Under the pieces are notes generated by a model that was not told the origin of the DNA, searched no databases, and saw only the letters and a list, made by a program, of their open reading frames with translations. The translations under genes were made by a program, and so were the position numbers. This document shows, piece after piece, positions 6,321 through 25,397 of a DNA stretch of 48,599 nucleotides. Each line of letters begins with the position of its first letter. The first letter of the stretch is position 1. This DNA comes from a virus: the IMG/VR virus record IMGVR_UViG_3300023222_000213, positions 1 through 48,599 of that record; one strand, given 5' to 3'.

Positions 6321-7409
6321 ATGGCTGTCAATTTATCGCTCACCGAGGCGCTACAATCGGTACAAAAAATGCTCGCAGAGGTCGTCACAGTAAACGACCC
6401 CACCAATTACGACAAACTCATAGGCACCCTCAACTGGCTTTTTTCTCCCTCCAACGGGAAGTCAATTCAGGCCACTATGGTTAAGACTGCAAACTCAAGC
6501 AAGTACAGACCCGTAGAAATTCGATACCTATCCAAAAAGGGGACAGGGGATCTTGTAACCTCTGATGCTTCCGCATCATGTACCAAGACTGATACCAGAC
6601 GGGAATTGATACAAACCTTGAATCCTACGCTATACGTAGAAGACAAATTCACTATTGATGAAGAAATAATCCGGGAAGGCACTATGGAGCAATTGCGCGC
6701 CAGGCTCGACCGAGAGATAAGGGACGCACAGCGCAATGCGCGGGAAGACATGAACCGCCAACTATTCAACGCCTATGCTTCTAGCTTCGGGGCCAACCCA
6801 TCAGGTAATTCAGGTGCAGGCATCGGGGTAGGAGCCTATCAAGACCTTGAATTAATCCTTACCGCAGGAACTGTAAGCGCTAATAATTTTGACCAGATCA
6901 CAAACGAGATGGAAGACAATTTCATGCGTGGAGTTGTGGGAATCCTGGGACTGGGGAATGCACGGAGATACATGAACCGCTTGGCGGTAGGCAACATTGC
7001 CGACGGTGGCTTTGATGTGAGAGAGATCGCTTCTGAATTTGGCATGGCCTTATTTAAAGACCACTTCACCACAGAAGTGTTAGGAGTGGCCAACAGGGTA
7101 TTGGCTGTTAATGCCGGTATCTCCAATTTCTTCAATTACAACCTGTTTAAAGGGTCAGATTTTGAAAATCCTTCTCCCCTTGGTGGTGTAAGAACCACGA
7201 TGAGGGATGCGGTATTCCCTTTTGACTGGGACTTCATCTTGAAGTATGACGATGAGTGCGACACCGGTAACGGATTACAGGGCGCATGGACAGGAAGGAT
7301 CTTAACTTATTTCGACCTGTGGCAAGCACCAGATACCGCGTTTGGCGAGCCTTACGGCGACCTGGTAGACTTCAACGGAGTTGTTGGGTATAACATAACT
7401 CAAGCCTGA
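6321..7409 (+). CDS. Major capsid protein
   Basis: The 362-residue product has the size and alpha/beta composition of HK97-fold capsid subunits, with a long charged helix (about residues 120-150, RLDREIRDAQRNARED) like the spine helix, and no signal or membrane segment. It follows the scaffold-like gene and is the best capsid candidate between portal and tail genes. The stop overlaps the next start (TGATGAG). Confidence 0.75.
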   Translation: MAVNLSLTEALQSVQKMLAEVVTVNDPTNYDKLIGTLNWLFSPSNGKSIQATMVKTANSSKYRPVEIRYLSKKGTGDLVTSDASASCTKTDTRRELIQTLNPTLYVEDKFTIDEEIIREGTMEQLRARLDREIRDAQRNAREDMNRQLFNAYASSFGANPSGNSGAGIGVGAYQDLELILTAGTVSANNFDQITNEMEDNFMRGVVGILGLGNARRYMNRLAVGNIADGGFDVREIASEFGMALFKDHFTTEVLGVANRVLAVNAGISNFFNYNLFKGSDFENPSPLGGVRTTMRDAVFPFDWDFILKYDDECDTGNGLQGAWTGRILTYFDLWQAPDTAFGEPYGDLVDFNGVVGYNITQA

Positions 7410-7936
7410 TGAGTAATTGTAGACCATCAATTCCCAATTACGTTCTCACGGACTGTGTTGACGAGATTGGGCGCGTGGTTGCTGTTGCTTTTATCCACAA
7501 AGACATTCATGCGTCGATTTATGCAAACCCATCGAATGCGACTTTATGGACAGACGGCAGCTATCAGGCGGACCTCCATGTTTTTAAGGAGGTGAGAGGG
7601 ACATACTCTGGTGGGCAGCCCACGGAAATTCCGGGGCTGGGAACCCAAAGCACCAGGGTAATAAATGCGGAGCACACTGCAGAAATCTCTATCGAAGGGG
7701 TAAAAGGAAATGAAACCTTCTGGAACGAGATTTCCAAGTCACACGAATACAGGGTGGCGCTGGTTATCGGGGGGAACTATGACCTCCTTCTGATAAACAA
7801 TAAGGACTGCTCTATTTTCGCTAATGTCCCGGTCGAGGAAGGACTGGACAGCGAGGTTTTATGGAAAGCCATGATTAAATGGCGAGACAGAGAAAACCCG
7901 AAAACATCAGATGTGCCAGCAGGCATATTTGAATGA
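7409..7936 (+). CDS. Virion structural protein directly after the capsid gene
   Basis: A 175-residue protein overlapping the capsid stop by one base. It is predicted beta-rich, with charged edges and no membrane segment. Position fits a head-tail connector, decoration protein or major tail tube subunit. Its tight coupling to the capsid gene and the terminator-like hairpin right behind it suggest high expression as the last gene of the head unit. Family not recognised. Confidence 0.6.
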   Translation: MSNCRPSIPNYVLTDCVDEIGRVVAVAFIHKDIHASIYANPSNATLWTDGSYQADLHVFKEVRGTYSGGQPTEIPGLGTQSTRVINAEHTAEISIEGVKGNETFWNEISKSHEYRVALVIGGNYDLLLINNKDCSIFANVPVEEGLDSEVLWKAMIKWRDRENPKTSDVPAGIFE

Positions 7937-7942
7937 TATGCA

Positions 7943-7974
7943 AGAAGCCCCTTGTTAAAAAGCAGGGGGCTTTT
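7943..7974 (+). terminator. Rho-independent terminator-like hairpin after the capsid unit
   Basis: AAGCCCC (7945-7951) pairs with GGGGCTT (7966-7972). With flanking A-U and G-U pairs the stem is about 10 bp with a 12-base loop and a short T run. It starts 7 bases after the stop at 7936. Full or partial termination here would separate strong capsid transcription from the glycan island. An in-frame ATG at 7933 runs through the hairpin, so part of it could be translated instead. Confidence 0.6.
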
Positions 7975-8007
7975 GTGCGTAAAGCTGTTTACCAAAGATT
8001 GGAAAGG

Positions 8008-8598
8008 GTGATAAATATAAAGCTCTCTATTCTTATTTGTACCATCCCGGAAAGAACCAATCTTTTGTCAGGTCTATTGACAGACCTAAACTATCAAATC
8101 CAATCCCTGCCGGTAGAATACATCTATCTGGGAGACAACAAGCGACGGAGCATCGGAAGCAAGAGGAACGACCTCTTAAGTCTTGCCCAGGGTGAATGGA
8201 TAAGGTTTGTAGATGATGACGATTCTATTTATGATGACGACATCAAAACGGTCCTTAGGCTTATCGAAGAACATCCAGATAAGAAGGTCATTTGCTTCAG
8301 TGGTACCCAGAATGAAGACAAAAAACCCACGTTAGATTTCCGCTTTGACCGCAAGTATGGAATAAACCACCGCACACACCACAACGGGAAGCAAGTGCGG
8401 GGCATGATACCCAACCATCTGTGTGTCTGGAAAAAAGATGTAGCCCTTTTAGAGAAGTTTCCGGATGTCAACCTTTCTGAAGATCACCGCTGGGCCAAGG
8501 CCATGCTCCAACATTATACCGAGCAGGACCAAATTATCACAGAGGACTATTTATACCACTATGAATTTAACCGGGAGGTGTCTGAATGCAGAAGGTAA
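8008..8598 (+). CDS. Glycosyltransferase family 2-like (GT-A)
   Basis: From the GTG at 8008 the product has 196 residues and begins INIKLSILICTIPERTN, the normal start of a GT-A domain. The metal/nucleotide-sugar site is RFVDDDDS near residues 67-73. An alternative ATG at 7933, overlapping the previous stop, would add 25 residues encoded by the terminator hairpin and unlike the family N-terminus. First gene of the glycan island. Expected to move a sugar from a nucleotide donor to an unknown acceptor in the host cytoplasm. Confidence 0.7.
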   Translation: MINIKLSILICTIPERTNLLSGLLTDLNYQIQSLPVEYIYLGDNKRRSIGSKRNDLLSLAQGEWIRFVDDDDSIYDDDIKTVLRLIEEHPDKKVICFSGTQNEDKKPTLDFRFDRKYGINHRTHHNGKQVRGMIPNHLCVWKKDVALLEKFPDVNLSEDHRWAKAMLQHYTEQDQIITEDYLYHYEFNREVSECRR

Positions 8599-9236
8599 AT
8601 TTATTTACGTGCCACTTCAAGCACCGCAACAAACAACGCCAAAGAGAGCTGGATTTTTGTCTGGAGAAAAACAAGTCCAATCCACTAATAGACAAGATTT
8701 ATCTGTTTAGCGAGCGCCCTCATTACCGCGACTTTTTTAACCAAACAACTGCATATCCTAATGATATCAACATTCTGGCGAATGCCGATATTTATTTTAA
8801 CGATACCATAAAATACCTGCAATTCATAAAACCCAATCAATGTTTCGCTATCACCCGGTGGGAAGAACACAACAGGAAGGCAGTAAGGTTTGAAGAAAGG
8901 CATGTCAAGAACAAAAACGCACAGGCAAAACACAGCCAGGATGTATGGGTTTTCATGGGCGCTGTAAAAAACAGGCTGCAAGGCAACTTTTATATGGGAA
9001 TCCCCGGATGTGATAATCGGATCGCCTGGGAGATTTCAAACCTGTATCAAATTTTTAATCCTTGTGAAACAATACAGTGTATCCATAAACACCAAAATCC
9101 AGAACGAAAATATAATATTCCCAAAGGATCACCAGACCGGATTCCCAGACCCTGGAAATTGGTGAATCCTTGTAGTATCACACTAGAAGGGATTATTTCC
9201 AGTCACATTAATTTAAAATACAGGAGGGCTGTATGA
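8586..9236 (+). CDS. Glycosyltransferase-associated protein, donor and acceptor unknown
   Basis: A 216-residue protein beginning MQKVNLFTCHFKH. The middle has NILANADIYFNDT and, near 115-145, the block SQDVWVFMGAV...NFYMGIPGCDNRIAWE, followed by IHKHQNPERKY near 165-175. This SQDxW...PGCDNR...HxHxxxxRxY pattern recurs in uncharacterised proteins near glycosyltransferases. I infer a sugar-transfer role. The reaction is unknown. Start overlaps the previous gene by 13 bp and the end overlaps the next start by 4 bp. Confidence 0.6.
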   Translation: MQKVNLFTCHFKHRNKQRQRELDFCLEKNKSNPLIDKIYLFSERPHYRDFFNQTTAYPNDINILANADIYFNDTIKYLQFIKPNQCFAITRWEEHNRKAVRFEERHVKNKNAQAKHSQDVWVFMGAVKNRLQGNFYMGIPGCDNRIAWEISNLYQIFNPCETIQCIHKHQNPERKYNIPKGSPDRIPRPWKLVNPCSITLEGIISSHINLKYRRAV

Positions 9237-10174
9237 AACTACTTCACATCGGCTTAATGGCAAACGGTAAAAACGAAGGGCTCTCTAAGGCTTTCAGATC
9301 AGCATGTAATAAATATTACGAGGTTAATCCTGGCGATAGTGCTTTAGAAGGCAAACTAAGCCAGATAGATTTTCTGCCAGATATTGTTTTCTGCCAGATC
9401 CAGTCCGAGAAACTTCAGGACCGTGACACTTGCGATGTACTGGGCCGTCATCTGGACCTGATGCGCCAAAAAGGGAGCTATGTTATTAACTGGACCGGAG
9501 ATATAAGATACGGCATACCCCCCTGGATGGTACGATTTGGCAATCATGTAGATCTTACTTGTTTCTCCAACGAAAGAGATATAAAGGAATTTGGCGGGCC
9601 TTCAGCTTTTTTACAAATAGGGGTAGACGCGGAGATATTTAACTCAACCGGAGAACCTAAAGCCGACAGGGAAATCGTTTTTATGGCCAATCACTATGGA
9701 AACCAGTTCCCACTAGGGGGCTTTAGAAAGAATATGACAGAAGCGCTTAAAAGACGATACGGGGCAAGATTCGGACTCTATGGCAACTTCCCCGGCGCTG
9801 ATGGAAACTATAACGTCCAGAATGACGATGTGCAGTACTGGCAAGGTGAAGAAGCAGCTATTTACAGGGGTTGCAGGATAGCTATTTCTATCAGTAATTA
9901 TCAGGTAGAAAGATACACTTCCGACAGGCTAATTAGAATTTTGGGATGTGGAGCTTTTTGTTTGGCACACTGGTATCCTAAGATCGAAGAGGAATTCCCT
10001 GAAGTGGTGACTTTCAATACCTTACAGGAGCTTTTTGAGAAATGTGATTACTATCTTCAGAACCCAAAAGAGGCACTAAAAATCGCGGATAAATGCGCGG
10101 AAAGAGTTAAATTACACCATACTTATGACGCTATGGTTAGAGACATTTTTAACCTCGTAAAAGTAGCTGTATGA
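9233..10174 (+). CDS. GT-B glycosyltransferase (family 1-like, CgeB/YkvP type)
   Basis: A 313-residue protein with a two-domain GT-B layout. The C-terminal domain holds the typical donor-binding stretch ERYTSDRLIRILGCGAFCL near 228-245 followed by HWYPKIEEEFP. This matches the short CgeB/YkvP-like glycosyltransferase family. GT-B enzymes use nucleotide sugars without a DxD metal site. Overlaps both neighbours by 4 bp, so it is co-translated with them. Confidence 0.75.
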   Translation: MKLLHIGLMANGKNEGLSKAFRSACNKYYEVNPGDSALEGKLSQIDFLPDIVFCQIQSEKLQDRDTCDVLGRHLDLMRQKGSYVINWTGDIRYGIPPWMVRFGNHVDLTCFSNERDIKEFGGPSAFLQIGVDAEIFNSTGEPKADREIVFMANHYGNQFPLGGFRKNMTEALKRRYGARFGLYGNFPGADGNYNVQNDDVQYWQGEEAAIYRGCRIAISISNYQVERYTSDRLIRILGCGAFCLAHWYPKIEEEFPEVVTFNTLQELFEKCDYYLQNPKEALKIADKCAERVKLHHTYDAMVRDIFNLVKVAV

Positions 10175-10917
10175 GGGTTGCTGCTTACATTGCTTTGCAT
10201 TACGGAAAAGACTACCTCCCATATGCCATAAAATCAGTTATCAACAGCGTAGATAAGCTAATAGTCCTTTACGCTTCACGCCCAAGCTATGGACACGCCA
10301 ACAGCTTACCCTGTCCTGAGACCGAAGAAGAACTAAGACAGATAGCCAGAGACCAGGCTGGAGATAAATTACAGTGGGTAAACATCCGCCACACCCACAT
10401 GGAAGGAGACCATAGGAACCAGGCGTTTGCACATTCTAATGGCTTTGATATTCTGGCGGTTGTGGATTCTGATGAGGTATGGGATCCTGAAGCATTCAAT
10501 ATCGCGGTAGAGTTTTCCGCAAAATCACAAGCTTTTAATATAGGAGCTAACCATTCAGGCTGGTTCCACTTCTGGCGGTCTTTTAACGAATACTGCCAAG
10601 ATGGTTTTTGCCCTATCAGGTTCCATAACCTCAAGGGGCATAGAGGCATGACAGATATTAATTGCCCGTCTAAGATTTATCATTTTGGCTACGCTCAGAA
10701 ACTAGGATTGATGGACTATAAATGGAGCTGTCACGGCCACCAGGACGAGCTAAGAACAGGATGGAAGAAAACGTTTCTAAACTATGAAAAAGGTAAAGAC
10801 AAGTGGCTTCACCCTGTCAGCGAGCAGATATGGCACGAAACACAAGATTTCAACAAAGAGACATTTCCGGACTTCATGAAGGATCACCCGTTTTATAATT
10901 TAGATAGGATAGAATGA
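10171..10917 (+). CDS. GT-A glycosyltransferase-like protein
   Basis: A 248-residue protein starting MRVAAYIALHYGKDYLPYAI with a Rossmann-like N-terminus and a probable DxD-type site in VVDSDEVWDP near residue 100. His-rich C-terminal half (FHFWRSF, YHFGYA, HGHQDEL). The pattern (Y)xxxLxxAIxSVxxxVDxxxV is typical of family 2-type enzymes that act on glycans. Overlaps both neighbours by 4 bp. Acceptor unknown. Confidence 0.65.
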   Translation: MRVAAYIALHYGKDYLPYAIKSVINSVDKLIVLYASRPSYGHANSLPCPETEEELRQIARDQAGDKLQWVNIRHTHMEGDHRNQAFAHSNGFDILAVVDSDEVWDPEAFNIAVEFSAKSQAFNIGANHSGWFHFWRSFNEYCQDGFCPIRFHNLKGHRGMTDINCPSKIYHFGYAQKLGLMDYKWSCHGHQDELRTGWKKTFLNYEKGKDKWLHPVSEQIWHETQDFNKETFPDFMKDHPFYNLDRIE

Positions 10918-11699
10918 TCTCAGGCTTTACATACATCCATAATGCTTTAAAAGCTGGCATCCCGATAAGAGAATCTATCAAGGCCGTGCTGACTTATGTT
11001 GATGAAGTGGTGGTGGTAGATGCAGAGAGTAATGACGGGACCAGAGAGGCGATATTAAAGATGTGCACATATTCCTGCCAAAAAAACTATCTTGAAATGG
11101 AGACTTTAAAACCACTTAGAATCATAGATGCCAAGTGGGGAACCGATGGAGGCGAAACTTTAAAGAGGCTCCATGCAATGAATATAGAATGTAAGGGAGA
11201 TGTGATAGTTCACTTTGAGGCGGACGAGGTTTTTGATGATAAACTGATATCAATTATTAAAGATTGTTACCAAGATGACGATTTTGGCGGTTATCAAGTT
11301 TATAGACTGCAAGTAGAACAAAATTTCCAGCGCATTAGATGGCACCCTGAATTAGTTCACAGGGTTTTTAAAAAAGGAACAATAACGAAGAATGGGCATA
11401 CAACAAATAGCCCCTCAAACTCATATATGCCTGCTAAATGTGGCTTTCTCTGGGATGTAACCAACTGCTTCCGAGATAACTGGCTTGCAAGGGTAGACCA
11501 ACAAGCTAAACTCAGGAGCGGAACTGAAACCCCTGAAACCAATTACAGAATGGTCCCGCTTCATTTTAATGAACCAATTGAACTAACAAGAGAACAGGCC
11601 ATTGAAAGACTGAAAGAGCCTCATTGGACTTGGGCTGAGACACCTTTAAATATTCCAGAAATCTTAAAGCCTCTTGTGGGGCGAGTGTGCTATGGGTAA
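10914..11699 (+). CDS. Glycosyltransferase family 2-like
   Basis: A 261-residue GT-A protein: FTYIHNALKAG...ESIKAVLTYVDEVVVVDAESNDGT (residues 5-45) is a classical GT2 start, and HFEADEVF near 103 is the metal/donor site. The C-terminus (NIPEILKPLVGRV) is clearly related to that of the gene at 14556 (NIPQIMRPLVGQK), so the two are paralogues. Its stop lies 8 bp inside an inserted HNH gene, and its 3' end was probably altered by that insertion. Confidence 0.75.
   Translation: MISGFTYIHNALKAGIPIRESIKAVLTYVDEVVVVDAESNDGTREAILKMCTYSCQKNYLEMETLKPLRIIDAKWGTDGGETLKRLHAMNIECKGDVIVHFEADEVFDDKLISIIKDCYQDDDFGGYQVYRLQVEQNFQRIRWHPELVHRVFKKGTITKNGHTTNSPSNSYMPAKCGFLWDVTNCFRDNWLARVDQQAKLRSGTETPETNYRMVPLHFNEPIELTREQAIERLKEPHWTWAETPLNIPEILKPLVGRVCYG
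11691..11696 (+). repeat. 6-bp repeat flanking HNH gene, left copy
   Basis: TATGGG here and again at 12185-12190. Both copies contain the start ATG, of the HNH gene on the left and of the next glycosyltransferase on the right. Removing 494 bp between them joins the two glycosyltransferase genes with the downstream start intact. Short enough to be chance alone, but the same arrangement is seen around the second HNH gene and the sulfotransferase. Confidence 0.45.
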
Positions 11700-12201
11700 G
11701 AAAATTTGGAGAGACATATTGGGTTACAAAGGCGTTTATCAAATAAATGATCTCGCATTCGTAAAATCATTAAAAAGACCCAGAGGAAAAAGAGACAAAA
11801 TAATTTCAAGTTGTGTTGCTCAAACTGGATATAAAACAGTGGTGCTTTTTAAAAATTCAGTGCGAAAAATCTATTTATTACATCGGCTTATTGCTATGGC
11901 GTTTATTCCAAATCCAGAGAATAAACCGTGTATTAACCATAAGGACGGTAATAAATTAAATAATTCACTTGATAATCTTGAATGGTGTACTAGGGCTGAG
12001 AATAATCAGCATGCTTTTAGAAATGGACTGATTAATAAAAGTGGCGAGAAATGTAATCTCTCAAAACTCAAGTCTTATCAGGTTTTAGAAATTAGAAAAC
12101 TACTCAAAAAGTATAAACAAAAAGATATAGCACGGAAATTTCATATAGATCAATCTACAGTCAGCTATATAAAAACAAAAAGATTATGGGCGCATCTGTA
12201 G
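11692..12201 (+). CDS. Free-standing HNH homing endonuclease (NUMOD4-HNH-HTH)
   Basis: A 169-residue protein. WRDILGYKGVYQIND at the N-terminus is a NUMOD4 module, and LHRLIAMAFIPNPENKPCINH...GNKLNNSLDNLEW carries the HNH metal-binding and catalytic residues (about 65-105). A C-terminal resolvase-like helix-turn-helix (KYKQKDIARKFHIDQSTVSYI) gives DNA specificity. It cuts phage-related DNA to spread itself. It interrupts the glycan island, is more AT-rich than the flanking genes, and overlaps the next gene by 16 bp. Start at 11692 overlaps the previous gene by 8 bp. Confidence 0.85.
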   Translation: MGKKIWRDILGYKGVYQINDLAFVKSLKRPRGKRDKIISSCVAQTGYKTVVLFKNSVRKIYLLHRLIAMAFIPNPENKPCINHKDGNKLNNSLDNLEWCTRAENNQHAFRNGLINKSGEKCNLSKLKSYQVLEIRKLLKKYKQKDIARKFHIDQSTVSYIKTKRLWAHL

Positions 12202-12893
12202 ACTTCGCTACATATTGCTGTAAGAAGGATATTAATAAACTCCATGATAATTTTTCGGATCATGTGAAATCACACGGCTATGAATTTGATAACATTCATT
12301 TGATTTATCAAAGATGTCTTCCAGATGTTGGGCGACTATTATTAAATATGCTGCCTGGTGTTTATAAACATTTTATAGAAGACACGAGTTACCCGACAAT
12401 CCTTTTAAGAAACTGCATCAATCCAGACAACAAGGAAGCCGACGAATACACTCACGGATGGGACCACTCACATTACTGGCGCCACCACGTCGTCAACCAT
12501 TTAGTAGCCTTAGAACAAAGCACAGCAGATTACATAGTCCTTTCTGATGCAGACTGTTACATAAAAAGCCAACCCAACGGACAATCCTGGGTAACCGCAG
12601 GAATCGAAGTGCTAAAAGCCAATAAGAGTATTTTAGTTGTTTCCCCTGGTGACGGTTCTGGCAGCAAGCATTTCAAAACCCAAAACATGAGCCAGCAAAT
12701 GTTCCTTTGTGAAAGGGAGAGATTAAAAAATATTGACTTCGATCTTCCATTCACAGGCTTTAAAGACGGTGGCCCCATGCAGGAGTATTACTTCATGCTG
12801 GAGGGAAGGATCGGGCGGTACATGGAAAAGAATAATTTGTACAGGCACATACTTGGTGACAGGTTTAGATATTGGCATTTGCAATGGCATTAA
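12186..12893 (+). CDS. GT-A glycosyltransferase-like protein
   Basis: A 235-residue protein with a probable DxD site in YIVLSDADCYI near residues 117-127 and no signal peptide. Other conserved-looking parts are DHSHYWRHHVVNHL (about 90-105) and FTGFKDGGPMQEYY near 195. This DADC context is seen in uncharacterised cytoplasmic glycosyltransferases. The ATG at 12186 lies in the right copy of the HNH-flanking repeat. The 3' end overlaps the epimerase gene by 10 bp. Confidence 0.6.
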   Translation: MGASVDFATYCCKKDINKLHDNFSDHVKSHGYEFDNIHLIYQRCLPDVGRLLLNMLPGVYKHFIEDTSYPTILLRNCINPDNKEADEYTHGWDHSHYWRHHVVNHLVALEQSTADYIVLSDADCYIKSQPNGQSWVTAGIEVLKANKSILVVSPGDGSGSKHFKTQNMSQQMFLCERERLKNIDFDLPFTGFKDGGPMQEYYFMLEGRIGRYMEKNNLYRHILGDRFRYWHLQWH

Positions 12894-13771
12894 AAATAGT
12901 TATAACAGGAGGCTCTGGGCTTTTGGGCAAATATCTGCTTAAAACGCAGCCGATGATCTCTCCCGCCGAGGGATGTTTTGAGCCAGAATATGAGATAACA
13001 CCCTGCTACAGGAACAACAAGATTGACGGCATTAAACTTGATGTATCAAACTTTTCAAATGTTATTGATGTGCTCTTTACAATACAGCCCGATATAATTA
13101 TCCATTGTGCTTGTAACGGAGATGTGGACAACGTAGAAGAACACCCGTCTGAGGCGGTAAAGGCTGATCTTTTGGGGGTGATTCATTTAAAGGACTTCGC
13201 CGAAAAAATGCGATGCAAGTTAATCATCATTTCGAGCAATGCGGTTTTTGATGGTGACAATCCCCCTTACTCTGAGGACTCACCAAGGAATCCGGTTAAT
13301 TTTTATGGCAAGATCAAATCTTTGGCTGATGATATTATAATGAAAAGCTCTTGTGAATGGATGATCGTCAGACCTATTTTTATGTATGGCTGGCCCAATG
13401 AAGGAGGAAGGGAAAACTGGGCGACTAAGATTATCAAGAGTTTGAAAGACGGGAAAGAATTACGGTTAGTCACGGACTCTTTTACACAGCCTACATATGC
13501 GGGAGATGTTGCGGAAGATATCTGGAGTCTAATTAAGCACGATTGGAATAGGGTTTATAATGTAGCCTCAAAAGAAAAAAGCACTATTTTTAATTTTGGC
13601 TTGAGAGTTGCTGATATATTCAACCTTGATTATAATAAAATAAACAGGGCCAAGCTAAAAGATTTTAAAACTATAGCGCCGCGACCGATAGACACTACAT
13701 TTGAAGTTAGCGATTACGGGCCGGTAGCAATTGAAGAAGGACTTCAAAAAATGAAAGATGAAAATAACTAA
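12884..13771 (+). CDS. NAD(P)-dependent sugar-nucleotide epimerase/reductase (RmlD-like SDR)
   Basis: The 295-residue product (start 12884, MALKIVITGG) is an extended short-chain dehydrogenase: the NAD(P) motif GGSGLLG at 9-15, IISSNAVFDG at 116-124, and the catalytic YxxxK as Y141-GKI-K145. The sequence order resembles dTDP-4-dehydrorhamnose reductase and related epimerases. It would make or modify the activated sugar used by the neighbouring transferases. No complete nucleotide-sugar pathway is present, so the substrate must come from the host. Confidence 0.8.
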   Translation: MALKIVITGGSGLLGKYLLKTQPMISPAEGCFEPEYEITPCYRNNKIDGIKLDVSNFSNVIDVLFTIQPDIIIHCACNGDVDNVEEHPSEAVKADLLGVIHLKDFAEKMRCKLIIISSNAVFDGDNPPYSEDSPRNPVNFYGKIKSLADDIIMKSSCEWMIVRPIFMYGWPNEGGRENWATKIIKSLKDGKELRLVTDSFTQPTYAGDVAEDIWSLIKHDWNRVYNVASKEKSTIFNFGLRVADIFNLDYNKINRAKLKDFKTIAPRPIDTTFEVSDYGPVAIEEGLQKMKDENN

Positions 13772-13919
13772 AAAACAGATTGAATTTCTTGAAACTATCT
13801 TGACGATAGAATTATATAAAGACCATAGATTGGAACCTGAAAGAAATCATTATTGCACAAACCCTGAAGAAACAAGGGACAGAGCCATTGAAAAAATAAT
13901 AAAATTTTATGATTCCTAA
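13758..13919 (+). CDS. Small helical protein, unknown
   Basis: A 53-residue protein (MKITKKQIEFLETILTIELY) overlapping the end of the epimerase gene by 14 bp and ending in the left copy of the 17-bp repeat. Charged and mostly helical, with one Cys. No family recognised. Its last codons overlap the remnant start of an interrupted glycosyltransferase (13909-13932). Confidence 0.5.
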   Translation: MKITKKQIEFLETILTIELYKDHRLEPERNHYCTNPEETRDRAIEKIIKFYDS

Positions 13920-13932
13920 AATCTCTATATGA
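13909..13932 (+). pseudogene. Remnant 5' end of a GT2 gene (MIPKISI then stop)
   Basis: ATG at 13909 opens a frame reading MIPKISI and stopping at 13930-13932. The intact glycosyltransferase at 14556 begins MELPKISIC in the same repeated DNA (CCTAAAATCTCTATATG). This looks like the original start of that gene, left behind when the sulfotransferase gene was inserted after codon 7. Confidence 0.55.
13915..13931 (+). repeat. 17-bp direct repeat flanking the sulfotransferase gene, left copy
   Basis: CCTAAAATCTCTATATG occurs here and at 14565-14581, exactly flanking the sulfotransferase-like gene; the copies are 650 bp apart. In the right copy it encodes PKISI of a glycosyltransferase. In the left copy the same codons end at once in a stop. 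This is the mark of an insertion with duplicated target sequence or of recombination through short homology. Confidence 0.85.
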
Positions 13933-14556
13933 ATGATAGTTAACTATAAAGCAAAACAATGCTTCATACATCTTCCTAAGTCGGGGGGGACATCTGTAAT
14001 GCAAAGGCTTTTAGATAAAAAAAATTGGCATTCTTTATTTGACGCACACGATAAGACACGAGATTTTAGAGAGCTTGATGGCTTCGAATTTACAGCAATA
14101 ATAAGAGAGCCTGACGATTGGTACAAAAGCATGTATACTTATTCTGAACTTACAGGATTGCCAGAGAAGTATATTTTCAGCAAGATAGGCGGAGTTGTTT
14201 ATTTATGGCAAAGGGCTTCTAGGGTTTGGAGAAGTGACTTCTCAATATGGCAGGAAAATGCAGAAAATATGAAATGGAAATTCCATTCTTTATTGCATAA
14301 TTACATTTCTACTTTTAGAACCCTTGGAGATAGTTCTAATGAATATGGCTGGTATACAAACAGATTAAAATATCAATTAGACGGATTAACGAATCTCCAC
14401 TTATTCAAGTATGAAAATATCGACATGGTTTTTGAAAAATATAAAATAGCCCAATTGGTAACTAATGTTACAACACTTCATGTTGATTTTAAAAATTGTA
14501 AATCAGATTTATCAAGAGACGAATATGCGGTCTATTTACATAAAAATGCGATATAA
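13933..14556 (+). CDS. Sulfotransferase-like protein
   Basis: A 207-residue protein. FIHLPKSGGTSVM (residues 11-23) is the 5'-phosphosulfate-binding loop of PAPS-dependent sulfotransferases (HxPKxGGTS), and TAIIREPDDWYKSMY (54-68) matches the 3'-phosphate-binding strand and helix (IxREPxxxxxS). It would transfer sulfate from PAPS to a sugar or other hydroxyl group. It is AT-rich compared with its neighbours and flanked by a 17-bp direct repeat, both signs of recent acquisition. Its stop overlaps the next ATG (taATGG). Confidence 0.75.
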   Translation: MIVNYKAKQCFIHLPKSGGTSVMQRLLDKKNWHSLFDAHDKTRDFRELDGFEFTAIIREPDDWYKSMYTYSELTGLPEKYIFSKIGGVVYLWQRASRVWRSDFSIWQENAENMKWKFHSLLHNYISTFRTLGDSSNEYGWYTNRLKYQLDGLTNLHLFKYENIDMVFEKYKIAQLVTNVTTLHVDFKNCKSDLSRDEYAVYLHKNAI

Positions 14557-15512
14557 TGGAACTACCTAAAATCTCTATATGCGTATTTATCAAAGACAAC
14601 AACCAGGGAGCCTACGGGCTGTGGGAATCAATGGCTACTCTTATGCCTTTTGCAGACGAATATTTTGTTCTTGACCTGGGATCAACTGACGGAACATATG
14701 AAATTCTGAAAGACCTAGCTTCGAAGAATCCAAAGATAAGATTGGAGCAAGGAGAGTTCCCAGTTAATCCTGTGACCGATTTGATTGATGCGGGAAGTTT
14801 TGCGGAGATTCCAAACGCCATGATACCGACTTGCAGAAATGATCTTGTATTATACTATCAGGCCGATGAGATCTGGCATGAAGATCTACTTAAACTGATG
14901 GTGGAGAGACTTGAAAATAAAAAAAGCTTCAAGGGGCTTTCTTTCTGGCGCTATCAGTTAAAAGATAATTTCCAGTATATTAAATGGCTTCCTCATGTTG
15001 TCCATCGGATAGGCCATAAAAATGATTTTGTTTTTGTAGAGGACGGCATGAACACAAAAGAAGCGTGGACCGTTGAGATGGTGTCAAACTATGATGGCGG
15101 ATGGTTTACCAGGTGGGGAGCAGAATTTTCAAAAGGTAGAAAAGAAGCTATTGACGAAAACGGCAACCCTCATATTTACGGGAAAGACTTTCGCGAAATC
15201 ACCGAAGGCAAAGAGGCGACCGAAATGCCAACCCATGAAATGATATTGGATATTTCATCTATCGGTGGATTCCTGGATAACATCAAAGAAAAAAACAAAC
15301 ACCATGCACCTTATTGGAGGACCAATCCTAATTCTATTAATATAGATGGTCAGTTCTTTAATTTGGAAGGATGGTATAAACAGCAATCTAATAATCCCGA
15401 TTGGACCAAACCCGACTCTCCTTTTAATATACCTCAGATAATGCGACCTTTGGTAGGACAAAAGACTTACCCCGTAAGGCAGAATATTTTAGATAAAATA
15501 ATAAACTCATGA
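14556..15512 (+). CDS. Glycosyltransferase family 2-like
   Basis: A 318-residue GT-A protein: ISICVFIKDNNQ...WESMATLMPFADEYFVLDLGSTDGTYEIL (6-50) is a GT2 nucleotide-binding start and YYQADEIWHED near 107-117 is the DxD-like site. The C-terminus SPFNIPQIMRPLVGQK resembles the gene at 10914, showing duplication within the island. Its first codons lie in the right copy of the 17-bp repeat, so its present N-terminus (MEL) was rebuilt after the insertion upstream. Confidence 0.8.
   Translation: MELPKISICVFIKDNNQGAYGLWESMATLMPFADEYFVLDLGSTDGTYEILKDLASKNPKIRLEQGEFPVNPVTDLIDAGSFAEIPNAMIPTCRNDLVLYYQADEIWHEDLLKLMVERLENKKSFKGLSFWRYQLKDNFQYIKWLPHVVHRIGHKNDFVFVEDGMNTKEAWTVEMVSNYDGGWFTRWGAEFSKGRKEAIDENGNPHIYGKDFREITEGKEATEMPTHEMILDISSIGGFLDNIKEKNKHHAPYWRTNPNSINIDGQFFNLEGWYKQQSNNPDWTKPDSPFNIPQIMRPLVGQKTYPVRQNILDKIINS
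14565..14581 (+). repeat. 17-bp direct repeat flanking the sulfotransferase gene, right copy
   Basis: Second copy of CCTAAAATCTCTATATG, here codons 4-8 of the functional glycosyltransferase (PKISI, with the last base in the Cys codon). See the left copy at 13915-13931. Confidence 0.85.
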
Positions 15513-15694
15513 AAGATAATGGAATTCAATTACTGAAAAAGTATATGGCACAAGTTATAGACAATGAAGGAGTTGCTTATGTTCCAAACATAAATGGTTA
15601 TCAAAGAATGGGGGCGCCGGAATTCACGCGAGAAGAAATTGTCATATTAGAGAAACTTGAAGAAGAAATACAAAAAGAAAATAGTGAAATTTAA
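15509..15694 (+). CDS. Small hypothetical protein of the glycan island
   Basis: A 61-residue protein (MKDNGIQLLKKYMAQVIDNE) overlapping the previous stop by 4 bp (ATGA). The C-terminal half is a charged helix. No recognised family. Confidence 0.5.
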   Translation: MKDNGIQLLKKYMAQVIDNEGVAYVPNINGYQRMGAPEFTREEIVILEKLEEEIQKENSEI

Positions 15695-16352
15695 CCTAAA
15701 GGATATTGAAAAAATGATTCAGGAGTTTGAGCCAGAGCCAACTGGTAATGAATTCCTAGATCAGAGATTCGAGGAAAGTAATTGCCATCCTTATTACCGC
15801 TTCTTTTATCAGTTTGCAAAGAGGTTTAAACCTGAGGTTATTGTGGAGCTTGGAAGCTGGCAGGGAACTTCGGCAGCGCATTTTGCGGGGGGAAGCCCTG
15901 AGAGTTTAGTGATAACCATTGACCATCATACCGACCCAGGAGATGAGGAAAATAGGCTAAAGACTGTTTGGGCATCTAATGAATTTATTAATATGCACTA
16001 TTTCCAGGGTTGGACCTGCACACAATTATATCAAGAAGAAAAATTTAATCATTTTGATGTAGTATCATCTAAAGACGCATTTCCGTGGATTATCAAAATG
16101 TTAGATAATCGAAAAATAGACGTTTTATTTATTGATTCCTGGCACCGATACGACCAAGCCAAAAAAGACTGGGAAGCCTACGAACCTCTTTTAAATTCCT
16201 CGTCACTTGTGATTTGTGATGACATTCTAGAAGGAACACCAGGATCAGGAATCGACAATATGGTTAAATTCTGGGAAGAACTACCAGATGAGAAATTTTT
16301 AAACGGAAACCTTCATCTAGGTTATCCGATGGGATTTTTGAAATGGACATAG
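15684..16352 (+). CDS. Class I SAM-dependent methyltransferase (Methyltransf_24/CmcI-like)
   Basis: From GTG 15684 the product has 222 residues; a TTG at 15657 would add nine. VIVELGSWQGTSAAHFA near 55-70 is the SAM-binding motif I, IDHHTDP holds the acidic residue after strand 2, and KIDVLFIDSWHRYDQAKKDWEAY near 150-172 with VICDDI matches O-methyltransferases and rhamnosyl/cephalosporin-type relatives. It is paralogous to the next gene. A sugar O-methyltransferase role fits the island but is inference. Confidence 0.75.
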   Translation: MKFNLKDIEKMIQEFEPEPTGNEFLDQRFEESNCHPYYRFFYQFAKRFKPEVIVELGSWQGTSAAHFAGGSPESLVITIDHHTDPGDEENRLKTVWASNEFINMHYFQGWTCTQLYQEEKFNHFDVVSSKDAFPWIIKMLDNRKIDVLFIDSWHRYDQAKKDWEAYEPLLNSSSLVICDDILEGTPGSGIDNMVKFWEELPDEKFLNGNLHLGYPMGFLKWT

Positions 16353-16942
16353 AAACACTAAAAAGATTAGCCGAAGAAGCACTAGCGGAAGAGGTTTATC
16401 CTAACCCGATGTTTCCACCGTCGAAGTATTACCGTTTCTTAAAGCTCTTAGCCCATGAGATGCAGCCGAAGTTGAGCGTTGAATTAGGGGTTTGTGGGGG
16501 CGGAGGGAGTTTGCATTTAGCTTTGGGGTGGTCAGAAGGGAAAGTTATAGGAGTAGATTTAGTGCCAGATCATGAAGAACATATTGAATATATGAAAAAA
16601 AATTATTATAATTTTGAATTTTGGATTCAAGATTCTGTAGAGGCTGCTCCATTTATTTTCAGGGATGAAGGCAAGGTAAAAATAGACATTTTATTCATTG
16701 ACACTACGCACACCTATGAAAGAACGCTAAATGAGTTCAAAGCCTACAAACCGTTCTTAAGCAAAAGAGCTGTTGTTTGCTTTGATGATTTGTTCCGGCC
16801 CGGCATGGAGGAAGCTTGGGACAAGATGCCAGGAGAAAAGGTAAGGCTTGACGTTTTACACGACGGGCAGTACCCAGAAGGAGGAGGATTTGGTGCTGTA
16901 TTACCCTTCAAAAACGTTGCTAAATCGACCGTAAATAGTTAA
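16343..16942 (+). CDS. Class I SAM-dependent methyltransferase (Methyltransf_24-like)
   Basis: A 199-residue paralogue of the gene before it: LSVELGVCGGGGSLHLALGW near 43-62 is motif I, VIGVDLVPDHE follows, and KIDILFIDTTHTYERTLNEF near 118-138 with VVCFDDL is the acidic metal/SAM region. Ten-base overlap with the upstream gene. Together they could methylate two positions of a phage-built glycan. Confidence 0.75.
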   Translation: MDIETLKRLAEEALAEEVYPNPMFPPSKYYRFLKLLAHEMQPKLSVELGVCGGGGSLHLALGWSEGKVIGVDLVPDHEEHIEYMKKNYYNFEFWIQDSVEAAPFIFRDEGKVKIDILFIDTTHTYERTLNEFKAYKPFLSKRAVVCFDDLFRPGMEEAWDKMPGEKVRLDVLHDGQYPEGGGFGAVLPFKNVAKSTVNS

Positions 16943-16953
16943 ATTTATACCTA

Positions 16954-17178
16954 ATGATAAAGAAAACCAATAAAGGCACTACGATGGACACCGGGGATGT
17001 GATGGCTGAGAAAATAACCGACACTCTACCAGGGATAGATCAGGAAAAATTAGTGGCAGAAACAAAAAAAGCTACTGATCTAGCAAAAGTGGAAAAGGTC
17101 AAGATAAAAAAGCCAGACGCTAAACCTGTGGGGACATGGTATATTTCAGGGAACTATAAAAGATTCACAAATGGATAA
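16954..17178 (+). CDS. Small Lys-rich hypothetical protein
   Basis: A 74-residue protein with a highly charged, probably disordered middle (KVEKVKIKKPDAK) and a more ordered C-terminus, VGTWYISGNYKRFTNG. A second in-frame ATG at 16984 is an alternative start. Overlaps the next gene by 8 bp. No family recognised. Confidence 0.5.
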   Translation: MIKKTNKGTTMDTGDVMAEKITDTLPGIDQEKLVAETKKATDLAKVEKVKIKKPDAKPVGTWYISGNYKRFTNG

Positions 17179-17425
17179 GCCGCATTTTAAGTATCGGACA
17201 TATAAAGGAGAAGGATATTTAGTTGATTCTGAATTAGAAGAAATTGTTCTTAAAACAGACGATGGAAGGAATATGTATGTTGGGAAATATGGTGAGTTCC
17301 GTTATAAAATAGATGGGCCTCAAGAAGGATATGTATTGCATCAACCACCAACAGCTATATTTTATAGAGAACAATATCCTGAAAAATATGTTAATGATCC
17401 AAGATTCAAAACATGCCTAACATAG
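17171..17425 (+). CDS. Small hypothetical protein of the glycan island
   Basis: An 84-residue, probably beta-structured protein rich in Tyr, Lys and Glu (FKYRTYKGEGYLVD, MYVGKYGEFRYKID). Thirteen-base overlap with the following transferase-like gene. AT-rich compared with that gene. Family not recognised. Confidence 0.5.
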   Translation: MDKPHFKYRTYKGEGYLVDSELEEIVLKTDDGRNMYVGKYGEFRYKIDGPQEGYVLHQPPTAIFYREQYPEKYVNDPRFKTCLT

Positions 17426-17994
17426 CTGTCATAGTTGAAAGCAGGAAACTTCCTAACCTGGACCTGGTAATTCAGGACCACATGAAATATCTACCAGGAT
17501 GGGAATACGACATAGTAGACGATAAAGATATGTCCAATCCATTCTGGCACTATAACGGCCTTCTTACCTCCATAGATTTTTGGCAGGAATACATTGACTT
17601 CGAAAGAGTTTTAATCTTCCAGCACGACTCAAGATTGTTAAGAGAAGGAGTGGAGGAGTTTATGGAATGGGATTACGTAGGATCTCCCTGGTATGATGGC
17701 GCACCCTGGGCGCACCCTCTAAGGAAAGGCGGGAACGGAGGGCTTAGTTTAAGGAACCCCAGGGTTATGACAGATACCATAAATTCCAAAAAATGGTATC
17801 ACACATATGGCAATGAAGACGTTTATTTTGTTAAATATATCGAACAGGCAGGCGGGAAATTAGCACCCTATGAAGTGTGCAAGAAATTCGCTTGTGAAAC
17901 AGTTTTTGAATTAAATACTTTTGGTTATCATCAGATCGAATCTTATATGTCACCCCAACAGGTGAAGAAAATCAGACTTCAGTATGTTGCATAG
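17413..17994 (+). CDS. DUF5672-type putative glycosyltransferase
   Basis: A 193-residue protein with the characteristic order FERVLIFQHDSRLLREG (55-72), WDYVGSPWYDGAPW (about 80-93), GGNGGLSLRN (about 100), NEDVYFVKY (about 127) and KFACETVF...FGYHQI near the end. These match DUF5672, a family placed with GT-A-type transferases. HDSR may serve as the DxD-like site. Last glycosylation-type gene of the island. Its TAG stop overlaps the GTG of a structural gene, so the island is translationally joined to the late operon. Confidence 0.75.
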   Translation: MPNIAVIVESRKLPNLDLVIQDHMKYLPGWEYDIVDDKDMSNPFWHYNGLLTSIDFWQEYIDFERVLIFQHDSRLLREGVEEFMEWDYVGSPWYDGAPWAHPLRKGGNGGLSLRNPRVMTDTINSKKWYHTYGNEDVYFVKYIEQAGGKLAPYEVCKKFACETVFELNTFGYHQIESYMSPQQVKKIRLQYVA

Positions 17995-18407
17995 TGTCAT
18001 TAAAAATATATAAGTCCTTCAATGTTCTTGTGCATGACGACAGCTCAGAGGACAAGGTTTACCACTACCCTATCGGGCATATGTGGTTTTCCTTTGACCA
18101 GATAAAAAAAACATTCTCCGTTCACCTCCTGAACCCGGAGGTACTCATAGCCAACGAACTTCTTTATACAGCATTCCAGAAAATTGATGGCGAAGCCTTT
18201 GTCAGCGATACGACTGTCATGGATTACCTTGATGATTTAATCGCAAGAGTTAACAAAGACTATGCTATTGAAGTGGTCAGTTCTGGCGGGCAAAGTCGGG
18301 TACTCACCGCAAACGCAGGGGATGAAACATTAAAAAAATTGTCATTAGAATTAGAAAAAATGAATATGCATTTGTCGTTAATGACCGATGAAACAATTGA
18401 AAGTTAA
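17994..18407 (+). CDS. Putative virion or head-tail protein
   Basis: A 137-residue protein with a GTG start overlapping the previous TAG by one base. Mixed alpha/beta (SLKIYKSFNVLVHDD, GHMWFSFDQI), ending in a helical Lys/Glu/Met-rich tail. It resumes the structural run after the island, and I see no enzyme motif. Position suggests a neck or virion protein. Confidence 0.5.
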   Translation: MSLKIYKSFNVLVHDDSSEDKVYHYPIGHMWFSFDQIKKTFSVHLLNPEVLIANELLYTAFQKIDGEAFVSDTTVMDYLDDLIARVNKDYAIEVVSSGGQSRVLTANAGDETLKKLSLELEKMNMHLSLMTDETIES

Positions 18408-18418
18408 ATAAATAGATC

Positions 18419-18967
18419 ATGGGACAACAAATAGATGACGGTAAAGGACGTGGATTCTTGGCCGAAGTAAATCCAGAACAGGAATTAGTAGTAAGATCAA
18501 TCACCGAATCTGAGATAGAACATGCTTCTGCAACGGCAGGGAATGCTTATAGCTGGGATTCAGGGATCAGAGATATAGACGCAGGGGACACTATGTTATT
18601 TGTGATGAACACAGGTGATACTCCTTTAATCCTGGATAGATTGGTGGTCAATGGAAGCAATGTAATTTGTGCTTGGGAAATATTAATAGGCGCGGAGACC
18701 ACCACACCGTCAGGAACCGATGTGATTGGGACCAATCTTAATGAAATATTTAGTACTAAACTTGCTGACGCATCAGCTTTTTATGATGAAACCGCAGTAG
18801 CAGACGGCAATATAGTTGACAGGATCACCACCGGCGCTAACGGGCATCACATCCATGATCTAACAGGGATGATTCTTGGTAAGAATCACTATGTCCAGAT
18901 AAACCAGGAAACTGAAAGCACATCTGGAAGCGTAATACTCCATGGTCATTACGAGAATCCTTCATGA
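18419..18967 (+). CDS. Putative virion decoration-type protein
   Basis: A 182-residue, Gly/Thr/Asp-rich beta-type protein beginning MGQQIDDGKGRGFLAEVNPE. The order (R)SITESEIEHASATAGNAYSW, DAGDTMLF, then SGSVILHGHYE at the end resembles virion proteins found widely in marine phages. Overlaps the next gene by 4 bp. Precise role unknown. Confidence 0.55.
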   Translation: MGQQIDDGKGRGFLAEVNPEQELVVRSITESEIEHASATAGNAYSWDSGIRDIDAGDTMLFVMNTGDTPLILDRLVVNGSNVICAWEILIGAETTTPSGTDVIGTNLNEIFSTKLADASAFYDETAVADGNIVDRITTGANGHHIHDLTGMILGKNHYVQINQETESTSGSVILHGHYENPS

Positions 18968-19383
18968 TAACCGTCTCATTAGGACATAATGGAATAAAAG
19001 CAAAGGTCACTAAATCAGGTGAACTGGTAATTGCGCCCTTGTCTTATGATGAAACTAAGTTTAATGAACTAGCGGAAACTAATACTGCGTACAATTTTTA
19101 TCTTCCTGTGTCTGAAAAGCAATTTGTTATCACTTCTATGCTCGCTTATGGTGACAAACAGGTGTCATCTAATACTAACGCAACGGTAGAAGTCTATGAA
19201 GCCTCAGATTCGGACGCGACAACAGTTGATAAATGCCTGGTTAAATTTGAGATCGGACAGAATCAGGCAATACCCTTTACTCCATTACGGGTGCTTGTTA
19301 ATCCAGGAAAATGGATAAACGCAAAAACGGATGATGACGATGTACACATGACAATTATGGGATATTACATATCTAAATTATGA
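18964..19383 (+). CDS. Putative virion beta-sandwich protein
   Basis: A 139-residue protein with beta-strand-rich pattern (NFYLPVSEKQFVITSMLAYG, ATVEVYEASD, VHMTIMGYYI). Coupled by 4-bp overlaps to genes on both sides. It probably forms a unit with the previous protein, such as a decoration or tail-tip pair. No family assigned. Confidence 0.55.
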   Translation: MITVSLGHNGIKAKVTKSGELVIAPLSYDETKFNELAETNTAYNFYLPVSEKQFVITSMLAYGDKQVSSNTNATVEVYEASDSDATTVDKCLVKFEIGQNQAIPFTPLRVLVNPGKWINAKTDDDDVHMTIMGYYISKL

Positions 19384-20345
19384 TTACCTGCTTAGACAAC
19401 CTGATAGGAGTTCGAGACCTGGCAACTTACAACCAGCCAGACACAGGATTTTTCATTAATGACCTCCCCGGAATAACTACCCAAAAGCTAGAGGACATAG
19501 GTGATCAGGAGGATCACTATGAGCCGAGACTGGCCTGGGAGGACATCTTAGACCGGGCATCAAGGAAATTCGAGGATGATGTAAAAACCCGCATGATGCC
19601 CTATTTTAAGAACTACTCTTATAAGGGGCATTCTATTACGGGCCAAATAGATGTTGACAACATCACTTTAGCGACTGAAGCATTTTATAGTGGATGGTGG
19701 TTCGATCTGGCTAACATGGATGAAAACCTTTCTTTGGTTTTAGAGACAGCAAACATTCATATTGTCTCAGGATCAAATTTTGAGATAAAAGTCTTTGATG
19801 CCATCACTGGGGAAACACTTAACACAATAGGATACGCGGCCACCTTGGGACTAAATGAATACCGGATCTTGGTAAAGCTTCCTCTTTGGAAGTACAGAAA
19901 GATATTTGTGGGTTATGATGCGAACGCTATTAGTGTCAAGCAAGTGGATAGGTTTGACAGAAACCTGGGAACAGTCTCGGCAAATCATGTAAGCAAAACA
20001 GCTTCCGTGACAGAGGGAAATATCACTTCCTCCAATACCGGCTTGATGTTAACTTATAACGTGGAGTGTTCGGTAGATAATTTTATCTGCCAAAGGATTG
20101 ACCTTTTTAAAAACCCCATCCTTTACAAACATGGCATAGAATTCTGCAATGAGCAAATATATTCGGACCGCATCAACCGATGGACATTATTAAATGTCGA
20201 GGAAGCAAAAGACCTAAAGGAGAATCTTTTAGTTCCGGAGTATGAACAAATGATGGATAACATTTTCAGAGATATTAGGGTGCGAGATCGGGGCGAATGC
20301 TTCGAGTGCGCCAAGCCAGTAACATATAAAACTTTTTTACCATGA
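19380..20345 (+). CDS. Putative virion structural protein (neck/tail)
   Basis: A 321-residue protein: helical N-terminus, a beta-rich centre that looks like a carbohydrate- or protein-binding sandwich (GWWFDLANMDENLSLVLETA, 110-200), and a helical C-terminus with two Cys (ECFEC). Four-base overlap at both ends. Located between decoration-type proteins and a tail-completion-like gene. Family not recognised. Confidence 0.55.
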   Translation: MITCLDNLIGVRDLATYNQPDTGFFINDLPGITTQKLEDIGDQEDHYEPRLAWEDILDRASRKFEDDVKTRMMPYFKNYSYKGHSITGQIDVDNITLATEAFYSGWWFDLANMDENLSLVLETANIHIVSGSNFEIKVFDAITGETLNTIGYAATLGLNEYRILVKLPLWKYRKIFVGYDANAISVKQVDRFDRNLGTVSANHVSKTASVTEGNITSSNTGLMLTYNVECSVDNFICQRIDLFKNPILYKHGIEFCNEQIYSDRINRWTLLNVEEAKDLKENLLVPEYEQMMDNIFRDIRVRDRGECFECAKPVTYKTFLP

Positions 20346-21303: not shown

Positions 21304-22008
21304 ATGGGACTATTATATGCAATTGAAAACAGTGGATTGGCCGATTGGTGGTGGAGAGATTCTACATCAAGCGTGGCGGCTTATCTAACTGATTCTATTA
21401 ATTCTTATGCATCTGGCGCTGCAAGTAACTACTCAGTCACAGGATCGGATATTGACGAATGGTATGATGAGCAGAATATAGGGACTTCGGCACAGGCGCT
21501 TACCGCTACAACAACCCAAAGACCTGTTCTAACAGCAGAAAATGCGGCTGATTTTGATGGGATTAATGACAATATGATATTTCCTAACCAGATAGCAACA
21601 GGAGTGGCGTTTTCTATGATTTGGGTTCTCACGTGGGAGGCTGTCAATTCCATTCTTTCTTCACAAGGGAGTGCCGACCATATACAGCTTAGACCTCCGA
21701 GTACTTTTAGAGTCAGACATTCCTCCTCAAATACCAATGCAACCATAAGAACACTGGTAAACGGCACCAAATACATAGTAGGGATTACACACCCCGCCAC
21801 TAACTCTTTCAGGGCTTTTATTAATGATGATGCACCGGTAGCTAACTCAGGAGCTTATAATTCTCCAGGGTTTGCCAGACTAGCAGAGACTGGTTCATCA
21901 TCACATCAGGGGCTAATTGAGCATGTAATACCCTACAATGTAGTTCTTTCAGATGCTATAATGGCGGCCAATATCGCAGAATTAAATGCCAAATATTCAA
22001 TTTTTTAA
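21304..22008 (+). CDS. LamG-like tail fibre or appendage protein
   Basis: A 234-residue protein whose core reads like a concanavalin/laminin G-type domain: TQRPVLTAENAADFDGINDNMIF (about 78-100), FSMIWVLTWEAVNS, then strands and the closing LAETGSSSHQGLIEHVIPYNVVLSDA (about 195-220). Such domains bind glycans or peptidoglycan on fibres. It is followed without a gap by a large spike that has a similar N-terminal domain. Confidence 0.65.
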   Translation: MGLLYAIENSGLADWWWRDSTSSVAAYLTDSINSYASGAASNYSVTGSDIDEWYDEQNIGTSAQALTATTTQRPVLTAENAADFDGINDNMIFPNQIATGVAFSMIWVLTWEAVNSILSSQGSADHIQLRPPSTFRVRHSSSNTNATIRTLVNGTKYIVGITHPATNSFRAFINDDAPVANSGAYNSPGFARLAETGSSSHQGLIEHVIPYNVVLSDAIMAANIAELNAKYSIF

Positions 22009-25034: not shown

Positions 25035-25397
25035 ATGGAATTATTTGAATCCATAGGATCAATGATTTTAACGCTTTGGGAGAAAGACCCTTTGGCGTTT
25101 ATAACCCTTTTAGGTGTGGCAATATATTTTGGTGTCAAATGGGCGCTAAAGAAAAAGGAAGCCGTAGAGGACGAAGTAGTCAAGCTATATGAATTAGACC
25201 AGGCCCAGCAGCAGAAAATTGATAAAATGTTCAACGCGCTTTTTGGTGATCCGGATATTCCAGGAGATAAAGGTATAAAGCAGAAGTTTGACGACTTCCA
25301 AAAGAAGTTTGATTTGCACACACAGACCCACATAGGAGTAAAAGAGGAAGCCATTAAAGCAGCCAAGGAGTACATAGACGCAAGACTTAAAAAATGA
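25035..25397 (+). CDS. Membrane-anchored coiled-coil protein, possible holin
   Basis: A 120-residue protein with one N-terminal membrane segment (PLAFITLLGVAIYFGVKWAL, about 19-38) followed by a Lys/Glu-rich helical domain. It overlaps the DUF5675 gene by 4 bp. Single-pass proteins of this design beside an endolysin candidate are often holins or holin-like. Confidence 0.5.
   Translation: MELFESIGSMILTLWEKDPLAFITLLGVAIYFGVKWALKKKEAVEDEVVKLYELDQAQQQKIDKMFNALFGDPDIPGDKGIKQKFDDFQKKFDLHTQTHIGVKEEAIKAAKEYIDARLKK

Follow-up and report, generated by a model that had tools for sequence, protein, structure and literature searches.

The glycan-enzyme island is a 10-kb block of genes, lettered A to O, that is found among the virion genes of an uncultivated phage. 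The phage genome is the 48.6-kb IMG/VR virus record IMGVR_UViG_3300023222_000213, and this whole stretch of DNA is called the window here. We judge it reasonably likely that the island is a late-expressed operon whose soluble, cytoplasmic enzymes build an oligosaccharide on a structural protein of the phage. The decorated product is probably an O-methylated 6-deoxyhexose oligosaccharide on the phage's own virion. We infer the timing of expression, the acceptor, the identity of the sugars, and the effect of the glycan, which might be shielding, adsorption, stability, or receptor mimicry.

The island occupies positions 7933-17994 (10,062 bp), which is 20.8% of the 48,455-bp unit genome, and is 98.3% coding, with all genes on the plus strand. 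Its first start codon is an ATG at 7933, with an in-frame GTG at 8008 as an alternative. Consecutive genes overlap by 1-16 bp, except where small ORFs (open reading frames) adjoin, with gaps of 4, 11, and 20 bp, and from 6321 to 20345 every junction overlaps or has a gap of at most 20 bp. The gene order from 2426 is portal, MuF-like, small, scaffold-like, capsid-like, the gene starting at 7409, the island, and more virion-type genes. A 1-bp overlap ties the island to the next virion gene, as gene O ends and gene P starts at 17994. The glycosyltransferase genes are thus placed within a virion structural operon, as expected of a virion-glycosylation system. Promoter-like sites (45 versus 45.4) and terminator-like sites (18 versus 17.8) occur at the level of shuffled sequences. 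A preliminary description of this DNA had reported a chained island of glycan enzymes within the virion genes, and its overlaps, its share of about a fifth of the genome, and its link to the next gene are all confirmed. The inventory given there stands for the transferases, the RmlD-like gene, and the two methyltransferases, but a gene with HNH and NUMOD4 domains was overlooked, and the sulfotransferase amounts to two motifs that lack a family match.

Sequence comparison supports five island genes as glycosyltransferases, and three more are likely to belong with them. Genes A (7933-8598), E (10914-11699), and I (14556-15512) are predicted GT2 enzymes that pass the PF00535 cut-off (1.8e-8, 9.4e-7, and 2.4e-7, respectively). 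A also matches phrog_14775 (1.3e-25), E has 19 related IMG/VR loci, and I is 68-71% identical to its counterparts in two related contigs, L025 and L019. Gene C (9233-10174) encodes a Glyco_trans_1_2 glycosyltransferase that passes the family cut-off (PF13524, 1.5e-20), and gene O (17413-17994) encodes a DUF5672 transferase-like protein (PF18922, 7.7e-31). Gene D (10171-10917; 18 aligned members) is GT2-like, although its 21.4 bits against PF00535 miss the cut-off of 23.3. The D profile matches GmaR (E 8e-4), a flagellin glycosyltransferase. Genes B (8586-9236; NADIYF motif) and F (12186-12893; conserved DxDC, 16 aligned members) are called transferase-like from acidic D-type motifs and synteny. 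B has no Pfam match above the cut-off, F reaches only E 0.12 for PF00535, and searches of the PDB with both profiles returned nothing meaningful. Relatives of B are found in contigs L002, L014, and L018, and in Synechococcus phage S-SKS1.

Gene G (12884-13771) encodes an RmlD-like NAD(P)-dependent reductase/epimerase (PF04321, 4.2e-42). It scores 144.6 bits for RmlD_sub_bind against a cut-off of 27, it carries GGSGLLG (GxxGxxG) and YGKIK (YxxxK) motifs, and its best PDB match is the dTDP-4-dehydrorhamnose reductase 3sc6 (5.7e-24; dTDP, deoxythymidine diphosphate). Gene G lies under the NCBIfam rmlD equivalog cut-off (TIGR01214, 147 versus 224 bits), so that it is assigned by profile to the RmlD family with a putative exact substrate. 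Genes K (15657-16352; start uncertain) and L (16343-16942) encode Methyltransf_24 / RMNT_CmcI-like proteins (PF13578, 5.2e-13 and 4.3e-13; PF04989, 1.2e-5 and 3.4e-6). Both pass the PF04989 cut-off of 23.2 bits (25.6 for K and 27.4 for L), and their PF13578 scores are higher still. An RmlC-like epimerase is encoded by 8 of 14 phage records (7 of them above the cut-off), in several cases between TerL and portal, and an RmlD/GDP-mannose-dehydratase-type gene is present in 13. An RmlA-type gene occurs in just one of the 14, where it is weakly matched, and the window itself has no RmlC. This distribution, together with the RMNT/CmcI-like methyltransferases, points to a dTDP-6-deoxyhexose, such as rhamnose, that is started by the host, finished by the phage, and later O-methylated.

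The core order D-C-E-F-G-I-K-L is found in about 19 uncultivated phage contigs besides the window, mostly straight 3' of the inferred capsid gene. Core proteins are 35-70% identical in these contigs, whose G+C content ranges from 36 to 59%. In L025 the order is MCP-7409-A-B-C-D-E-F-G-I-K-L, where MCP denotes the putative major capsid protein gene and 7409 the gene that follows it, and in L002 it is MCP-7409-A-B-C-D-x-E. L019 has A-B-C-D-F-G-E-I-K-L-O plus a GDP-mannose 4,6-dehydratase. In a second group (L015-L017, L021, L028-L031, L033, and L035-L038), a capsid-position gene of its own is followed by D-C2-E-F-G-I-K-L, within the limits of each contig; C2 precedes D in L029, and G is not seen in L037. 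The core is also present in L023, L024, and L027, with no capsid gene in the fetched stretch. L014 and L018 have B-C-D-O, other transferases, and a methyltransferase among virion genes, and L018 is phage DNA that had been binned with a Methylococcaceae metagenome-assembled genome. In the last 0.2 kb of L002 (15318-15556), a fragment of the gene G epimerase lies on the opposite strand and cuts gene E, which looks like a chimeric contig end.

The two capsid families show no homology by profile-profile comparison (hhalign probability 0.1), and the portals of the two lineages have no BLAST similarity. Among the contigs of the second group, distances for D (rho 0.86) and G (rho 0.90) track those for the capsid protein, and E and F distances follow the capsid and the other core genes poorly. 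Either local exchange or differences in rate could account for the latter. In 50,697 phage records, C, E, L, and the two capsid proteins have no match at E 1e-5, and F has none at E 1e-2. Matches to B are limited to S-SKS1 and large uncultured phage records, and O matches one large uncultured phage record. F is also absent from 398 sampled Pseudomonadota genomes, a sample that lies outside the likely host phylum, Bacteroidota. The same F profile recovers F in 12 of the 14 records that hold the loci.

The putative major capsid protein (6321-7409, plus strand; 362 amino acids) is located upstream of the island, in the order portal-MuF-scaffold-MCP. Its relatives are 73% identical in L002 and 60% in L025, and hhalign pairs it with the capsid-position protein of L014 (probability 96.5%). 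The capsid name stays positional, because searches against family and PDB profiles gave no match, and the portal is likewise a putative assignment from order and size that no library or PDB profile labels. The next gene (7409-7936, plus strand) encodes a candidate acceptor that is likely a tail-tube protein. An AlphaFold model made with its L002 and L014 relatives has a predicted local distance difference test score (pLDDT) of 58 and a predicted template-modelling score (pTM) of 0.62. The top structural matches of the model are mostly tail tube, Hcp, and neck proteins at Z 6-8, values that can reflect a common arrangement. This gene adjoins the transferase cluster in the window, L002, L025, and L014. 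In L014, the tail-tube-like gene (3377-3901) keeps this place next to the glycosyltransferases, though the head genes are otherwise rearranged.

A plausible pathway would begin with host RmlA and RmlB, joined by host RmlC in the window phage, which would supply an activated dTDP-4-keto-6-deoxyhexose to be completed by the phage RmlD-like protein G; this step is suggested by the family of G and by the RmlC genes of relatives. A protein glycosyltransferase, for which D is the candidate given its GmaR-like profile, might then begin glycan assembly on a protein of the virion, with the products of the two genes immediately 5' of the island, the putative capsid and tail-tube proteins, as the likeliest acceptors. 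The products of E, F, I, C, A, B, and O, five of which have family support, may extend the chain in an order that we can only propose. Finally, the RMNT/CmcI-like proteins K and L would O-methylate the glycan, as their family suggests. In the window phage only, the product of gene H, described below, might add sulfate from host 3'-phosphoadenosine 5'-phosphosulfate (PAPS), a step that is tentative.

Alternately, the enzymes might remodel the host surface, with late alteration of lipopolysaccharide or capsule that keeps progeny from being trapped by debris or excludes superinfecting phages. All enzyme families of the island are also known from surface-polysaccharide clusters, and the window phage has an integrase (26648-27907). 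Moreover, pelagimyophage transferases have been interpreted as surface modifiers (PMC7029224). However, no island protein has a transmembrane segment at a hydrophobicity threshold of 1.6, at which three control proteins from the same genome do score, and the island lacks a lipid-carrier transferase. No Polysacc_synt flippase was found in the window or in 13 relatives, and the 13 relatives tested also gave no Phage_integrase match. The island is not adjacent to the integrase of the window phage, two capsid lineages show it collinear with their head genes, and late expression would leave little time to rebuild a surface. Host-surface remodelling is therefore unlikely, and a cytoplasmic acceptor that is carried in the virion is the best reading, because membrane proteins, flippases, and integrases of relatives are missing and the capsid-side place is constant. 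Of the two possibilities raised in the preliminary description, decoration of the virion is thus the one favored by position, by recurrence beside inferred capsid genes of unrelated head lineages, and by these negative results. Several points weigh against virion decoration. The viruses are uncultivated, and no glycan has been observed. The MCP is named from gene order, and the relatives are possibly incomplete contigs, so that for each of them the absence of integrase and flippase is weak evidence. Soluble enzymes could also alter a lipid-linked host glycan, and the pelagimyophage transferases just mentioned, which lie in variable regions, are read as O-chain modifiers (PMC7029224). Finally, the C-termini of the MCP and of the putative tail-tube protein are not rich in Ser/Thr; internal Ser/Thr-rich stretches occur in other virion proteins. 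In mycobacteriophages, a Ser/Thr-rich C-terminal acceptor tail on the capsid and tail-tube proteins may be a requirement for glycosylation.

Two further alternatives concern other products. The enzymes could modify phage DNA to give hypermodified, glycosylated bases, since DNA-glycosylating phage glycosyltransferases are well known (cited in PMC12619734) and the window encodes a C5 cytosine methylase (33656-34561). This methylase is 16 kb from the island amid other genes, no base hydroxymethylase was detected among the subset of window genes scanned, and the location among virion genes, the RmlD-like protein, and the RMNT-like methyltransferases suit oligosaccharides, making a DNA target very improbable. 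The product of the operon could instead be a glycan in soluble or secreted form, or a glycosylated small metabolite acting, for instance, as a decoy or a signal, in either case not attached to the virion. No acceptor has been identified, and eight transferases are many for a single protein modification, yet the consistent position of the island next to inferred capsid and tail-tube genes makes this explanation improbable as well.

Gene H (13933-14556, plus strand) is a sulfotransferase-like gene found between G and I. It has the 5' and 3' PAPS-binding motifs, as these are generally defined, in the expected order (HLPKSGGT and REPDDWYKSMY), and both occur together in none of 5000 shuffled sequences. 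H has no Pfam, NCBIfam, PHROG, or PDB match, and Sulfotransfer_2 (PF03567) does not detect it at E 1 in its own genome or by hmmscan to E 10. Among named proteins, H comes closest to a Sulfotransfer_2 protein of a Leisingera plasmid, which aligns across both motifs (residues 5-70) with a single-pair E of 3e-7 and a database E of 5. An AlphaFold model of H from the single sequence (pLDDT 34) is uninformative on the fold. No relative was found in IMG/VR or phage records, and the H motif is absent from all other fetched loci. The gene is flanked by two identical 17-bp repeats on the plus strand, a left copy CCTAAAATCTCTATATG (13915-13931) and a right copy within the start of gene I (14565-14581). 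The left copy is a remnant of the original gene I start, encoding MIPKISI and then a stop, and gene I of L025 begins MIPKISICVF directly after G, with no H between them. The orphaned start and the exact repeat indicate that gene I was interrupted at its 5' end by the insertion of H. As a private insertion, H would make sulfation, if real, an add-on to this phage rather than a core step. The earlier assignment of a sulfotransferase is thus weakly supported, by both PAPS motifs but not by any profile, and it applies to one inserted gene in this genome only.

A similar arrangement has been described in Corndog (mycobacteriophage cluster O), in which an O-methyltransferase, two glycosyltransferases, and an N-acetylglucosaminyltransferase gene lie between portal and protease, and capsid modification was suggested (PMC4351075). 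Like the island, this block places O-methyltransferase and transferase genes inside a virion operon, but it has four genes rather than twelve or more and is described without a sugar-nucleotide enzyme. Searches with island proteins B, C, E, F, H, L, and O gave no match among mycobacteriophage records. Mycobacteriophage capsid and tail-tube subunits carry glycans (Freeman 2023, as reported in PMC12619734), and the island lies just after a gene pair that putatively encodes these two subunits. Glycosylation is observed in mycobacteriophages, whereas here it is inferred, and the candidate acceptors here lack the Ser/Thr-rich C-terminal tail. Chloroviruses and Megavirinae encode transferases and sugar-synthesis enzymes that have been tied to particle decoration (PMC5408694, PMC10117803), a likeness by description to eukaryotic giant viruses rather than phages. 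In S-SKS1, the B homologue (32% identity) lies right after a nucleotide-sugar epimerase. This cluster differs in having transaldolase and isomerase genes and is not annotated beside a capsid gene, and the other core genes tested are unmatched in it. Serotype-converting Gtr modules of temperate phages likewise include phage-encoded glycosyltransferases, but use membrane GtrA/GtrB-type proteins, typically near attP. The island has neither membrane-embedded Gtr proteins nor a flippase.

Compared with known virion-glycan gene sets, the island is larger, includes sugar-nucleotide enzymes, and is conserved across capsid lineages, and the genes tested are absent from collected phages. The earlier view that a sulfated, methylated glycan would be new was too strong for the methyl part, in light of Corndog (PMC4351075). 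The sulfated part would be new within the searchable literature, as no paper on phage sulfotransferases was found in a search that lacked most subscription journals. Phage virion glycosylation has so far involved a few cultured groups and small transferase sets, whereas this much larger pathway keeps its gene order across phages with no detectable capsid kinship. If the virions are decorated, glycan coats would be a widespread, overlooked layer of environmental phage particles that would affect how these adsorb, decay, and are recognized, and the core operon would supply defined genes and acceptors for testing. More speculatively, and with some doubt, an old, mobile eight-gene operon, limited to uncultivated tailed phages and shared by their unrelated capsid lineages, might decorate capsid or tail proteins with the O-methylated 6-deoxyhexose oligosaccharide, and plug-ins placed between core genes, such as H, might diversify it to give the first sulfated phage virion glycan.

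The remaining island genes are a homing-type HNH endonuclease gene between E and F (11689-12201) and two small ORFs, M and N (16954-17425), without a Pfam match. The endonuclease has both the HNH_3 (PF13392, 7e-12) and the NUMOD4 (PF07463, 9e-7) domains that define this type. HNH- and GIY-YIG-like homing-type sequences are also found between core genes in the islands of L015, L017, L037, and L038, and such endonucleases may help to spread or shuffle island genes.

The window has exact 144-bp direct terminal repeats at its ends and so represents a complete genome. The virus is a temperate tailed phage, as indicated by TerL (40743-42005; Terminase_3, 7e-51), a tape measure gene (44490-46673), and the tyrosine integrase. 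Nucleotide and capsid-protein searches gave no match to named phages. The host probably belongs to Bacteroidota, judging from the integrase Arm-DNA-bind_5 domain (PF17293) and from DUF5675, which is found in a protein encoded upstream of the integrase region (25394-25876). A protein of 430-450 amino acids in L016 (4138-5505), with relatives in L007, L009, L011, L012, and L020, is found both near B homologues and within an island, and is possibly a head or fibre protein. Downstream of the island in the window, a 965-amino-acid virion-region protein (22008-24905) carries an esterase-like motif (GTSGGG), lacks a Pfam match, and is preceded by a Ser/Thr-rich protein of 234 amino acids. This pair (21304-24905) could be receptor-binding or glycan-processing tail proteins.

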